From the NCBI GenBank assembly GCA_014896455.1, contig JADBKJ010000009.1, forward strand, positions 1-64,000: a DNA stretch of 64,000 bases, in the 5' to 3' direction. Below, piece after piece: positions 7,356 through 54,879 of the stretch (the stretch's first letter is position 1; every line of letters starts with the position of its first letter). Origin of the DNA: Thermoanaerobacter sp. (GTDB lineage Bacteria > Bacillota > Thermoanaerobacteria > Thermoanaerobacterales > Thermoanaerobacteraceae). Position numbers and translations under genes: made by a program. The notes beneath the pieces are model-generated. The model had not been told where the DNA came from. It was given only the letters and a program-made list of their open reading frames with translations, and made no database searches.

Positions 7356-7459
7356 CTCTTATCAAGAGAGGTGGAGGGAAAGAGCCCGATGAAACCCAGC
7401 AACCTGTCCTATAGGACAAGGTGCTAATTCTCTCAGAAGCATGCTTCTGAAAGATGAGG
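7356..7459 (+). ncRNA. SAM-I (S-box) riboswitch
   Basis: The S-box core is visible: CTCTTATCAAGAGAGGTGGA, GATGAAACCCAGCAACC, AAGGTGCTAATTC, then the closing GATGAG pairing with CTTATC of P1. It senses S-adenosylmethionine and here precedes metK, whose product makes SAM, giving feedback control. Confidence 0.95.
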
Positions 7460-7466
7460 GTATGTG

Positions 7467-38834: not shown

Positions 38835-39476
38835 ATGGGTGAAATAACAAAAGATACAGTAAATTTGATGGAAGAGTATATAAATAAAATTCAAGGAGTA
38901 CTATCCAGTAGGGTAGTTGTAGAAAATGGTGAGATAACAGAAATTCACGTGTTGGCTGACAGTACAAGAAATGCAAAGCAAATTGCAAGAGATGTACAAT
39001 CTGTCATAATCGCGCAGTTTGGAATTGATATAAATCACAAGATTGTCAGTGTAGCGCAAATTGATACTGGAGAAAATCTCCAAGGAGAACATAGGCTTGT
39101 TTTTTCAAGCTATTCATTTATAAATAATGGACTTACCAGTGAAGCAAGAGTTATCCTCACAAGAGGCGATGAGGTTTTTGAAGGATATGCTGAAGGACCT
39201 AATACTGCAAGTAATAAATATAAAATAATTGCCAATGCTACTTTAGACTCTATTTCTAAATTGATTCCCAAAAACCATTTATTTTTATTGGAAGATGTCG
39301 ATATATTTAATATAGCGAAAAGTAGGATAATAGTTGTAGGGGTTACTCATGTGACAAATAACCAGGAGGAACTCCTTACCGGGTCTTGTCTTATAAAAAA
39401 AGATGAAGGGGAGGCTGTGGTAAAAGCCACATTGGATGCCGTAAACAGGCGCGTCATGTCGATTACATCTCTTTAG
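38835..39476 (+). CDS. Conserved hypothetical protein, two-part alpha/beta
   Basis: 213 residues, name not recognised. The N-terminal half (NGEITEIHVLADSTRNAKQI, ARDVQSVIIAQFGIDINHK, SVAQI) is a conserved block found in clostridial proteins of unknown function. The C-terminal half (YAEGPNTASNKYKIIANATL, GVTHVTNNQEELLTGSCLIK, ATLDAVNRRV) has an alternating strand-helix pattern. No signal peptide or membrane segment. ATG 38835 with AGGGTGTGA upstream. Confidence 0.7.
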   Translation: MGEITKDTVNLMEEYINKIQGVLSSRVVVENGEITEIHVLADSTRNAKQIARDVQSVIIAQFGIDINHKIVSVAQIDTGENLQGEHRLVFSSYSFINNGLTSEARVILTRGDEVFEGYAEGPNTASNKYKIIANATLDSISKLIPKNHLFLLEDVDIFNIAKSRIIVVGVTHVTNNQEELLTGSCLIKKDEGEAVVKATLDAVNRRVMSITSL

Positions 39477-39487
39477 TTTTTTAACAC

Positions 39488-39661
39488 CCAAACCGCTTAA
39501 AAGTTGCTTAGCGTAGCGTTACCTGAAGCCTAAGGGCAGAGAGTTTAACAGTAAAGGAGGGTTTCAGGATGAATAAAGCGACACTTATAAAAATATTGCT
39601 GGCTTTAATGGCACTTGCATTAGCTGGAGGTGCAAATTTAATGTGGGGTTAAGGCGGTTTG
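39488..39661 (+). ncRNA. Putative structured RNA ahead of the HD-GYP gene
   Basis: Ends pair as CAAACCGC (39489-39496) with GCGGTTTG (39654-39661), extended by TTAA on each side. Inside, CCTGAAGCC (39522-39530) pairs over 9 bp with GGTTTCAGG (39560-39568), whose 3' strand sits between AAAGGAGG and the ATG at 39569. CTTAG (39507) can pair with CTAAG (39530), which would compete with or knot this stem. No known riboswitch core was recognised. Confidence 0.4.
39569..39652 (+). CDS. 27-residue hydrophobic peptide
   Basis: ATG 39569 to TAA 39652, preceded by a near-perfect AAAGGAGG 8 nt upstream, better than most genes here. The product has a short basic start (MNKATLIK), a membrane-length hydrophobic run (ILLALMALALAGGA) and ends NLMWG. 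It could be a small membrane protein or a leader or signal peptide. The HD-GYP gene starts 43 bp downstream. Real translation is not proven. Confidence 0.5.
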   Translation: MNKATLIKILLALMALALAGGANLMWG

Positions 39662-39695
39662 AGGTGTTTTTTAGATTGAAAATAGGAGGTCTATT

Positions 39696-40970
39696 ATGCT
39701 TAACAAAAGAGTAAAAATATATATTTCTATAATAATAGCATTAGGGTTGTCTTTTATTATTTATTCTATACTAAACACACCTATAAATAGAATTATAGAT
39801 ATAATTTTATTTGGATTTTTTGCTGTTTTAGCGGAGTCAATGCCAATATATATATCAAAAGAGATTACTGTGTCCGTTGCTTTTGCAGTTGATTTAATGG
39901 CACTTTTAATTTTTGGACCATATGAAAGTGCCTTAATAGCAGGTATAGGAACTGCTTTTCAGATTAGTAAATATGTAGATGGGAGAGTACGACATATATT
40001 TAATTTTCCTTATTATAAAACATTGTTTAATATATCACAAATAGCTTTAAGTGTGGGCATTGCTGGTTTAATATATGAATATACGGGAGGTATTCCAGGT
40101 AATCACATATATCCTCAACACCTTTTATCTGCAATATTTGCAGCAATTGTATATTATCTCTTAAATACTTCTATTGTATCTATATTATTATCTTTTTTAT
40201 CTAATAAATCACTTACATATGTTTTAACAAAAGAGATTAAATGGATGATCCCGAATTTTCTTTTTCTTGCTTTTTTAGGCATAGTCATGTCAGAAGCTTT
40301 TATAAGGATAGGGTACATAAGTTTTATTTTACTTTTCATACCCCTTTTTATGATACGATATATGTTTAAGCTTTACATGGACTCAAAGCAGTCTTATTAC
40401 GATACAATAAATGTGCTTGTAAAGGCTCTTGATGCAAAGGATAAATATACAGCAGGGCATTCAAAAAATGTAGAAAAAATTTCGGCTTTACTTTGTAGAG
40501 AATTTGGTTTTAGTGAGTCTCACACTGAAATGGTGAGGATTGCATCACTTTTACATGACATAGGCAAGATTGGAGTAAAAGAAGAGGTTTTAAATAAACC
40601 AGGTAAGTTAACTGATGAAGAATTAAGCATAATAAGAGAACATCCCCAAAAAAGCTATGAAATTTTAAGAGATGTTCCGGCTTTAAAGGAGGCCTCTCTA
40701 TGGGTGAAATACCATCACGAGTGGTACGATGGAAGTGGATATCCTGATGGCATAAAAGGTGACGAAATACCATTGGAAGCGCAGATACTTTCTCTCGCAG
40801 ACGTTTTCGATGCTTTAGTTTCAGACAGGCCCTACCGAAAGGCTTTTTCACAAGAGGAAGCATATAGAATAATTGTGGCAAATGAAGGGACACAGTTTAG
40901 CCCTAAAATAATAAACGCCTTTAAAAAAGCTTTTGAAAAGAATAGGGAGGAGTTTAAGCATGATATTTGA
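39696..40970 (+). CDS. HD-GYP domain protein with N-terminal membrane sensor
   Basis: 424 residues. Six or more N-terminal membrane helices (about 1-215) form an MASE-like sensor. The HD-GYP domain follows (about 235-420): DAKDKYTAGHSKNVEKIS, LLHDIGKIGVKEEVLNKPGKL, YHHEWYDGSGYPDG, LSLADVFDALVSDRPYRKAF. HD, GYP and the metal ligands are intact, so c-di-GMP hydrolysis is predicted. ATAGGAGG upstream of ATG 39696. The end overlaps the next gene by 11 bp. Confidence 0.93.
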   Translation: MLNKRVKIYISIIIALGLSFIIYSILNTPINRIIDIILFGFFAVLAESMPIYISKEITVSVAFAVDLMALLIFGPYESALIAGIGTAFQISKYVDGRVRHIFNFPYYKTLFNISQIALSVGIAGLIYEYTGGIPGNHIYPQHLLSAIFAAIVYYLLNTSIVSILLSFLSNKSLTYVLTKEIKWMIPNFLFLAFLGIVMSEAFIRIGYISFILLFIPLFMIRYMFKLYMDSKQSYYDTINVLVKALDAKDKYTAGHSKNVEKISALLCREFGFSESHTEMVRIASLLHDIGKIGVKEEVLNKPGKLTDEELSIIREHPQKSYEILRDVPALKEASLWVKYHHEWYDGSGYPDGIKGDEIPLEAQILSLADVFDALVSDRPYRKAFSQEEAYRIIVANEGTQFSPKIINAFKKAFEKNREEFKHDI

Positions 40971-41544
40971 TTCACTTGGTGCTTCTCTAATTTACGGAAC
41001 TTTAAGAAGAGGGAAAATTAGCGGAATTGCTGATATTGACATAAAAAAACCCATCCTTTTTATAGCTGCTTTTGTTTTGGAGTTTGGTATGTTAAACCTT
41101 GCTAATAAGTTTCACGTCATTATGGAATACCGGTCTTATATCCACTTCTTTGTTTATCTTTTGCTTTTCATAGGATTGTGGTACAATAAAGATAACAGGT
41201 ATTTTAGAATAATAAGCATTGGAGTGCTTTTAAATTTTATAGTTATATTTGCAAACGGAGGAAGAATGCCTGTCTCTGTTGATGCTTTAAAGGCAGCGGG
41301 ACTTAATAATCTCATCCTTGACCTTCAGTCAAATAAAATTGCTACACATCAGGTTTTGACAAGTTCTACACGGTTAAAATTTTTAGCAGATGTCTTAGTG
41401 TTGCCAAAACCTTATCCATTGCCAAAAACTTTTAGCATAGGAGATTTTATAATGGCGACAGGCACATTTTTACTTATTACAAACGCAATGTTTAAAAAGG
41501 TGAAAAATCATGACGGCACAAGAGCGAAGGAACAAAATAGTTGA
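40960..41544 (+). CDS. DUF5317 membrane protein
   Basis: 194 residues from ATG 40960 (AGGGAGGAG upstream, inside the HD-GYP gene). About five membrane helices, with the conserved ANGGRMPVSVDALKAAGL and LADVLVLPKPYPLPKTFSIGDFIMATGTF that mark DUF5317. Function unknown; often beside HD-GYP genes in clostridia. It overlaps niaR by 35 bp. Confidence 0.8.
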   Translation: MIFDSLGASLIYGTLRRGKISGIADIDIKKPILFIAAFVLEFGMLNLANKFHVIMEYRSYIHFFVYLLLFIGLWYNKDNRYFRIISIGVLLNFIVIFANGGRMPVSVDALKAAGLNNLILDLQSNKIATHQVLTSSTRLKFLADVLVLPKPYPLPKTFSIGDFIMATGTFLLITNAMFKKVKNHDGTRAKEQNS

Positions 41545-42022
41545 AATTTTAAAGGACGCTAAAGAGCCTATATCCGGCTCTGACCTTGCTAAAAGGTTTG
41601 GAGTGACAAGGCAAATTATTGTGCAAGATATAGCTATTTTAAGGGCTAAAGGGATTAAAATATTGTCTACCCCTCAAGGTTATATAGTAGACATTGTAAA
41701 AGAAAACACTGTAAAAAGGGTTTTTGCTGTCAAACACGGATACGACAGGACAGAGGAGGAGTTAAATTTAATAGTTGACAATGGCGGAAAGGTGCTAGAT
41801 GTAATTGTAGAGCATCCCTTCTATGGGGAGATAAAAGGGCTTTTAATGCTTTCTTCAAGGTATGATGTAAGTAAATTCATGGGATTTGTAAAAGAAGGAA
41901 AAGCGACCCTTTTGTCTTCTCTGACGGATGGAGTGCACCTTCACACTGTTGAAGGGGAAAATAAAGAGGTACTAGATAGAATACAAAAGGTCTTAAAGGA
42001 AAAAGGCTTTTTAATAGAATAA
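41510..42022 (+). CDS. niaR: Niacin-responsive transcriptional repressor NiaR
   Basis: 170 residues: N-terminal HTH (RNKIVEILKDAKEPISGSDL, RFGVTRQIIVQDIAILRAKG) and C-terminal 3H domain with its three conserved His regions (VKHGYDR, VEHPFYGEIKG, GVHLHTVEG) for metal and nicotinate. The niacin transporter gene lies next, its likely target. A decayed inverted copy of the niaR start is found at 42679-42867. Confidence 0.88.
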   Translation: MTAQERRNKIVEILKDAKEPISGSDLAKRFGVTRQIIVQDIAILRAKGIKILSTPQGYIVDIVKENTVKRVFAVKHGYDRTEEELNLIVDNGGKVLDVIVEHPFYGEIKGLLMLSSRYDVSKFMGFVKEGKATLLSSLTDGVHLHTVEGENKEVLDRIQKVLKEKGFLIE

Positions 42023-54642: not shown

Positions 54643-54729
54643 AAATAAATTAAAAATTTTTCACAAAAACTATTGACAAAGAGAGATAAAAGTGAGAAAA
54701 TAAAACTAAAATTGAATAAGATGAAGGTA

Positions 54730-54843
54730 AATCTTCGGGGCAGGGTGAAATTCCCGACCGGCAGTGAAAGCCTGCGAGCCGCACATGCGGTTGATTTGGT
54801 GAAATTCCAAAGCCGACAGTGAAAGTCTGGAGGGGAGAAGATT
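54730..54843 (+). ncRNA. FMN riboswitch (RFN element)
   Basis: AATCTTCGGGGCAGGGTGAA, ATTCCCGACCGGC, GTGAAAGCCTGCGAGCC, then CCGACAGTGAAAGTCTGG and closing GAGAAGATT pairing with AATCTTC. It controls ribU. A -35-like TTGACA lies at about 54673. Confidence 0.97.
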
Positions 54844-54879
54844 TTCTTTTTGTGCCTATTTTTGTGAAATAAATCACAA

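Follow-up and report, generated by a model that had tools for sequence, protein, structure and literature searches.

A candidate peptide pheromone precursor encoded within a conserved structured RNA ahead of a MASE9-HD-GYP c-di-GMP phosphodiesterase in Thermoanaerobacter

Introduction

Signal-peptide-type pheromones, those of the SHP/Rgg systems among them, occur in streptococci and enterococci, where their receptors are cytosolic transcription regulators. In ComX/ComP and AgrD/AgrC, the signal and the sensor domain diversify and are exchanged jointly, while the catalytic half of the receptor and the flanks are conserved. The locus described here lies in a 64,000-nucleotide stretch of a Thermoanaerobacter sp. 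contig (JADBKJ010000009.1, positions 1 to 64,000, forward strand), referred to below as the window. As in SHP/Rgg, its putative precursor belongs to a group of about 22-27 residues with a positive N-terminus, a hydrophobic core, small residues and a short C-terminal signal, and the gene of the cognate receptor adjoins that of the precursor. Unlike SHP/Rgg, the proposed receptor is not of the Rgg type but joins a membrane sensor and a c-di-GMP phosphodiesterase in one protein, and the precursor gene is placed inside a conserved structured RNA. The polymorphism of signal and sensor amid conserved flanks and a conserved catalytic half is a resemblance to ComX/ComP and AgrD/AgrC, from which the locus departs in its proposed output, c-di-GMP hydrolysis. 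According to Pfam and NCBIfam scans, the immediate neighbour proteins are an HD-GYP, a DUF5317, an S30AE and an uncharacterised protein; they include neither a maturation enzyme (ComQ, AgrB) nor a histidine kinase. The system works like the SHP/Rgg, ComX/ComP and AgrD/AgrC pairs but is a member of none of them, as the receptor type and the maturation genes differ.

The closest described relatives of the receptor are proteins with MASE9 sensors (Pfam PF20972) and HD-GYP phosphodiesterases, since it matches both families as well as solved HD-GYP structures. We know of no ligand for MASE9, and a literature search for this word returned nothing related to the present system. The predicted sensor fold is like that of the ECF S-components (BioY, RibU, ThiT, FolT, NikM), with Z about 12-14 over 150-190 residues, and differs from them in being fused to an HD-GYP enzyme and in the proposed sensing of a peptide instead of vitamin import. 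As regards the RNA, c-di-GMP riboswitches (Rfam families RF01051 and RF01786) occur near c-di-GMP genes; unlike these, the RNA place in the window and in 18 relatives matches no Rfam family. No description of the system was found in the titles and abstract openings searched, a scope that left bioRxiv and most subscription journals outside.

Organization of the locus

The features of the locus are listed in Table 1. All elements named in the original prediction (the pair of ends, the 9-bp stem, the CTTAG/CTAAG pairing, the Shine-Dalgarno sequence, the ATG and the ORF) are present, each at or within one base of where it had been placed. The small hydrophobic ORF, described there as embedded in the RNA, recurs in all 24 of the order's genomes that were compared and is tied to the HD-GYP gene. 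The assignment of the next gene to HD-GYP was likewise confirmed, its product scoring above the Pfam cut-offs for HD_5 (3.5e-41; 141.2 bits, cut-off 27.2) and for MASE9 (4.2e-10; 40.3 bits, cut-off 24.3). The DUF5317 gene comes next in the window, and the source genome holds one copy each of the locus and of MASE9.

Table 1. Positions in the window of the features of the small ORF locus.
Feature	Position	Strand	Basis or remark
Upstream gene (UPG), function uncharacterised, possible RNA partner	38835-39476	+	
P1 5' arm of the outer stem enclosing the small ORF, AACACC-CAAACCGCTT	39483-39498	+	sequence, fold, own versus mismatched partner test in relatives
CAAACCGC, pairing with GCGGTTTG	39489-39496, 39654-39661		ends named in the original prediction
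RNA 5' domain: AGCGNAGCG motif, P2/P3 region, ribosome-binding site	39505-39568	+	covariance model R2 match; P2/P3 covariation in relatives
CTTAG, CTAAG	39507-39511, 39530-39534		
Start-proximal stem, 5' arm CCTGAAGCCT	39522-39531	+	sequence, fold, recurrence test
CCTGAAGCC, pairing with GGTTTCAGG	39522-39530, 39560-39568		9-bp stem core
Shine-Dalgarno of the small ORF, AAAGGAGGG	39553-39561	+	sequence; final GGs within start-proximal stem
Shine-Dalgarno core AAAGGAGG	39553-39560		
Start-proximal stem, 3' arm GGGTTTCAGG	39559-39568	+	abuts ATG; sequence, recurrence test
Small ORF MNKATLIKILLALMALALAGGANLMWG, 27 aa, ATG at 39569	39569-39652	+	proposed precursor of a signal-peptide-type pheromone
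Proposed mature tail NLMWG, after A22	codons 23-27, 39635-39649	+	
P1 3' arm AGGCGGTTTG-a-GGTGTT	39652-39668	+	sequence, fold, helix in relatives
T6 run following P1, terminator-like, separating the small ORF from the receptor gene	39667-39672	+	sequence; T-runs at relatives
MASE9-HD-GYP c-di-GMP phosphodiesterase, proposed pheromone receptor	39696-40970	+	Pfam, AF2 model, fold matches

Distribution and linkage to the receptor gene

At E<=10, the peptide was detected in 31 of 61 relatives and in none of the 13 neighbouring-family genomes in the search; the three neighbouring-family genomes with matches in the profile search (E 0.35-0.86) were taken as chance. The profile, built from 28 peptides and searched over 398 genomes of the phylum, matched 210 genomes at E<=1 and gave 76 matches at E<=1e-3, and MASE9 was found 145 times over the same genomes. 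Among these 76 peptide matches, 68 lie at most 900 nt upstream of a MASE9 match on the same strand. The remaining eight consist of four which adjoin an HD-GYP gene falling below the MASE9 threshold (G020, G149, G279, G114), three at or near contig ends (G055, G310, G141) and one that looks spurious (G311). The peptide accompanies 76 of 107 MASE9 ORFs shorter than 550 aa and none of the 38 longer ones, a boundary that was picked after the lengths had been seen. Of the 31 short MASE9 genes lacking a profile match, 18 were fetched and 14 were readable, the other four being cut off or giving no receptor and hence left out of the count; a diverged small ORF was recognised by eye at 12 of these 14 loci and was missing at two (G210, G305).

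A set of named genomes, which overlaps with the 398 (G002, G007 and G009, for example, are in both), provided 80 upstream-gene loci kept of 552 found, 71 of them with enough downstream sequence. HD-GYP is the next gene in 67 of the 71, and the small ORF and HD-GYP occur together in 64. Thermoanaerobacter, Thermoanaerobacterium, Desulfosporosinus, Thermincola, Symbiobacterium, Carboxydocella, Caproiciproducens and an Armatimonadota bin are represented among these loci. On the reverse strand of L007 (G007), a frameshift or a sequencing error divides the receptor ORF into two parts of 320 and 118 aa.

In family f3 (L022, L023) the small ORF and HD-GYP are still found together, at a distance from the upstream gene and without the RNA, which is thus dispensable in one family; this persistence of the pair alone, without UPG or RNA, was counted in favour of reading the peptide as a pheromone. 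In f3 the small ORF and receptor are relocated behind phosphate-binding-type genes (L022, 1501-2900; L023, reverse strand), and a hairpin terminator was noted by eye between the small ORF and the HD-GYP gene.

Anatomy of the peptide and selection

The 27-residue ORF is a real gene. Comparison of 135 distinct products of 20-31 residues allowed 130 to be parsed as three parts, namely a leader, a core of small residues and a tail, the last measuring 4-8 residues. The core reads AGGA in 102 of the 130, and its second and fourth residues, at -3 and -1 relative to the tail, are small in 129. Small residues at these two positions suit signal peptidase I, so that the core is compatible with putative cleavage by this enzyme. 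The tails are distinct in 116 of the parsed peptides, with an aromatic residue in 127, a tryptophan in 93 and a tryptophan at the fourth tail position in 87. In the window, a signal-peptide-like N-terminal segment is followed by the small-residue motif LALAGGA and then by the tail NLMWG. Family f22 has ORFs of 19-20 aa, in which the hydrophobic stretch is charged and interrupted, a composition atypical for a signal peptide.

Codons 2-22 are under purifying selection and the 4-8 residue tail is hypervariable. With pN/pS taken as uncorrected proportions, ten Thermoanaerobacter genomes gave 0.18 for codons 2-22 versus 1.15 for codons 24, 25 and 27, while the corresponding values in eight Thermoanaerobacterium genomes were 0.04 and 1.48. 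A hypervariable mature part behind a conserved leader is a criterion for pheromones, and this contrast was observed in both genera.

Joint switching of tail and sensor domain

Among close Thermoanaerobacterium species, the flanking genes, the leader and codons 1-22 are 94-100% identical and the HD-GYP half 98-100%; MASE9 identity is 56-68% across different tails and 94-96% in two same-tail pairs (94 in G014/G017 and 96 in G013/G018). For the pair G010/G014, with tails NYTWG and NLQWN, identity amounts to 99% in HPF, 98% in the upstream gene, 100% of nucleotides in both the leader and codons 1-22, 98% in HD and 99% in DUF5317, with MASE9 at 56%. The three comparisons of G010 with G012, G014 and G017 range over 97-99% (HPF), 98% (upstream gene), 96-100% of nucleotides (leader), 97-100% of nucleotides (codons 1-22), 98-99% (HD) and 96-99% (DUF5317), with MASE9 at 56-57%. 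The MASE9 of G010 (tail NYTWG) shares more identity with that of the other clade, in members bearing xTWG tails (76-78%), than with the MASE9 domains of its own clade. G010 and G016 have the tail NYTWG in common, yet their MASE9 domains are 76% identical, which counts against a strict match of tail and MASE9. Synonymous divergence (pS) in MASE9 reaches 0.56-0.71 between types versus 0.12-0.42 in the flanks and HD half, and therefore the segments have been exchanged and not merely selected.

Partial Mantel tests of tail distance against MASE9 distance, given the flanks, gave r=0.88 (p=0.0009) for eight Thermoanaerobacterium genomes, in which the controls (HD, upstream gene, HPF, DUF5317) correlated with the tail at r 0.07-0.15, not significant. 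For ten Thermoanaerobacter genomes, r was 0.56 (p=0.0014), with the tail also correlating with the upstream gene, HPF and DUF5317 (r 0.49-0.55; p 0.006-0.02 in 3 of 4 controls). Over 19 genomes the value was 0.21 (p=0.024), and over 12 Desulfosporosinus-type loci 0.28 (p=0.023); G019 was excluded from receptor comparisons because its contig ends, and G011 entered the 19-genome test only. In the Desulfosporosinus-type pair L234/L235, identity is 95% in the upstream gene, 90% in HD and 50% in MASE9, and a counter-example is provided by L234/L255, where both tails are SFRI and MASE9 is just 52% identical. Co-diversification of a linked cognate receptor with the signal, a further criterion for pheromones, was thus found, more weakly in the Desulfosporosinus-type loci. 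At the level of sequence, the switching of tail and MASE9 together amid constant flanks and a constant HD half is the signature of a pheromone-receptor pair. By the same comparisons it is the peptide, and not the RNA, that co-evolves with the sensor domain of the HD-GYP protein, and this was the main point missed in the original prediction.

The strict adjacency of the two genes, the hydrophobic helix and the covariation of tail and MASE9 would also be consistent with a possible alternative in which the ORF product stays uncleaved in the membrane as a lasting subunit of one helix, its tail touching MASE9 on the extracytoplasmic side and evolving jointly with that domain; the short f22 forms without a clear signal peptide point the same way. 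This is considered unlikely, given that a structural tail is not expected to show pN/pS above 1 and 116 distinct forms among 130, nor its alleles to be exchanged as cassettes among close species, and that the core is compatible with signal peptidase I in 129 of the 130 parsed sequences.

The MASE9-HD-GYP receptor

The proposed receptor consists of MASE9 (residues ~1-225) and HD-GYP (~230-424). An AF2 model made with 61 sequences has a pLDDT of 92, and its C-terminal half matches a c-di-GMP-bound HD-GYP structure with Z 26.5. Residues 27-207 of the model match ECF S-components with Z values of 14.2 (4hzu_S), 14.2 (NikM-type, 4m5b), 14.1 (RibU), 13.8 (BioY), 13.5 (FolT) and 12.0 (ThiT). These matches (Z 12-14, rmsd 3.0-4.0, 152-188 residues) are of a predicted model and concern the fold only, and helical folds may reach Z about 13 by chance with this aligner. 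As many different S-components are listed and Foldseek ranks them directly after HD proteins, MASE9 is likely, on this modelling, to have the six-helix ECF S-component fold. The ligands of S-components are small and are bound on the outward side, in a pocket that is normally open there, and a peptide of four to eight residues would fit the size of their ligands. The domain also occurs in the 38 long proteins without the ORF, which indicates that it can sense something else.

The structured RNA

The region 39483-39672 folds as a long stem, P1, around the ORF (z = -2.3, with 3 of 200 shuffles equally stable). The outer stem is longer than originally described, with an AACACC/GGTGTT extension and, after it, a T6 run. 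Between lineages P1 differs in length (8-22 bp) and in sequence. Over 96 loci, the helix score of its own pairs averages 30.1, compared with 19.7 when the partners are mismatched and 18.4 in shuffles, exceeding the 95th percentile of shuffles at 88 loci and of mismatches at 75. A column test on 45 distinct rows in register counted 144 cells with changes in both partners, versus 61.6 +- 7.2 in shuffles; the rows were chosen for an in-register core, which favours pairing, a bias that the mismatched-partner test is free of. A T-run of at least 4 just after P1 is found in 55 of 90 loci versus 14% of control windows, so that P1 with its U-run resembles, in sequence, an intrinsic terminator between signal and receptor gene. 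A local scan of the plus strand from the ORF to the receptor gene found no short-loop terminator, and promoter-like sites in it were not above shuffles. At loci L193-L197 (family f22), where the peptides have shrunk, a run of G facing a run of C (GGGGGGGC/GCCCCCCC) stands in place of P1.

Inside P1 are the motif AGCGRAGCGG, P2 and P3, the last a hairpin whose loop reads UAGCGGA; both motifs are conserved and unpaired. RNA covariance models span P2/P3 only, P1 having been tested by scripts. A model seeded with 8 rows matched 52 of 94 loci, always just upstream of the ORF, and 12 of 13 P2/P3 pairs in these 52 change on both sides (114 cells versus 33.6 +- 4.8 in shuffles). Paired cells make up 88.6% versus 64.5 in shuffles in an alignment fitted to the structure, and shifting the partners by 1-3 columns gives 28-42%. 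The rebuilt model matched 57 of 398 genomes, once each and all at this one locus type: 52 have a profile-detected ORF within 60 nt, and the other five have, as read by eye, a diverged ORF and a MASE9-type receptor, or at any rate the beginning of one. At the threshold of this search the model misses Thermoanaerobacter, the genus of the window; against the 64-kb window alone, model R2 matches 39505-39568 with 22.8 bits (E=0.0037), the window copy being among the 52 training rows. The structured RNA of the original prediction is thus supported by fold stability and by covariation in relatives, a check proposed beforehand and found for P1, P2 and P3, which indicates that the RNA is a real conserved structured element.

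The earlier reading had matched the RNA to no known riboswitch class, and this agrees with the Rfam search, where no family was found at this place at the gathering score or at E<=5 and 18 relatives gave 0 matches to any family. The best sub-threshold match, PreQ1-like on the minus strand (E 0.86), was rejected as chance. A CsrA-type sponge was also rejected, since CsrA binding follows the rule ANGGA, which the repeated AGCGGA misfits. Compact, conserved and unpaired motifs between covarying helices could suggest a riboswitch that binds c-di-GMP or another nucleotide and acts on the ORF or the HD-GYP gene, an idea compatible with a pheromone precursor. It appears rather improbable, as Rfam matches are lacking, all 57 genome matches lie at one locus type, and the motifs are equally explicable as a protein-binding site, with UPG at 94 of 96 loci and P1 absent where UPG is absent. 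A c-di-GMP riboswitch finds no support here, and in f3 the RNA is dispensable. As for the suggested translational switch, the start-proximal stem fits translational control and recurs, with other sequences, above the 95th percentile of mismatched partners at 20 of 87 loci, while switching or a ligand lacks support; by this test the stem is real in part of the lineages and weak or missing in the rest.

The UPG gene, highly conserved, encodes a protein without a Pfam or NCBIfam family, and comparison of its sequence with solved structures gave nothing significant. The AF2 model (pLDDT 95) has its best fold match in a LeuA regulatory domain (E 1.5e-6, TM 0.41), dsRBD proteins being matched weakly. 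Two loci lack both UPG and P1. Within the order, UPG is missing from the same two genomes as the RNA, and these keep ORF and receptor. Because the genomes without UPG are those without the RNA, the 5' domain may act through the UPG protein, a possible RNA partner.

The position of the ORF within a structured RNA, the terminator-like P1 and U-run ahead of the receptor gene, the Shine-Dalgarno sequence partly in a stem and the frequent Trp codon near the stop (W in 93 of 130 tails) recall a dispensable leader peptide, whose translation would control the HD-GYP gene via a switching RNA through attenuation or coupling. The chance of this seems slim: codons 2-22 are strongly conserved as protein while the tail is diversified, peptide and receptor survive without the RNA in f3, and in Thermoanaerobacterium the tail tracks MASE9 and neither the HD half nor the flanks. 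The C-terminus is variable here, unlike in arrest-type leaders, which to our knowledge conserve it. A short hydrophobic peptide with a long-distance 5'-3' stem is also reminiscent of type I toxin-antitoxin systems, in which P1 would act as in structured toxin mRNAs; a toxin is extremely improbable, considering that the ORF is kept across the order ahead of the same receptor gene and that tail diversification is tied to the receptor.

Proposed mechanism

Taken as a whole, it is probable that the small ORF encodes a pheromone precursor whose released tail gates c-di-GMP hydrolysis by the adjacent MASE9-HD-GYP protein. According to this model, the transcript would mostly end after P1, so that precursor message would be plentiful and receptor scarce. 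Translation of the precursor would be tuned by the 5' domain and start-proximal stem, perhaps via the UPG protein. The precursor would insert in the membrane with its tail outside, and the tail (NLMWG here) would most likely be freed on the external side of the membrane by a cut after the core. The freed tail could then bind the MASE9 pocket, on the same or neighbouring cells, with a resulting change of HD-GYP activity, in either direction, that would couple the density of kin to c-di-GMP. Ligand and sensor would be swapped together between species as a specificity cassette.

A broader claim, that these loci constitute an undescribed and widespread Bacillota signalling class, in which a pheromone of 4-8 residues gates c-di-GMP hydrolysis through the S-component-like pocket of a one-component receptor and the precursor is encoded within a structured RNA of a new family, perhaps under regulation by the UPG protein, is one on which we are evenly divided. 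If true, population sensing would be tied straight to c-di-GMP, with neither a kinase nor a transcription factor in between, MASE9 would gain a ligand, and the vitamin-uptake fold would have been reused as a pheromone receptor. The RNA family, with its coding core, would be new, as would this form of cell-to-cell signalling in anaerobic Gram-positive bacteria. The many natural alleles of tail and receptor make specificity testable, in thermophiles that are non-pathogenic, with short synthetic peptides.

Other features of the window

The segment 42588-42867 on the minus strand repeats, inverted and in degraded form, the stretch where DUF5317 meets the regulator gene that follows it (41400-41600), and the ORFs within this segment repeat KNHDGTRAKEQ and EILKDAKEPISGSDLAK. 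At the Rfam gathering score, the window also contains an FMN riboswitch (54727-54846) and a SAM riboswitch (7356-7460).
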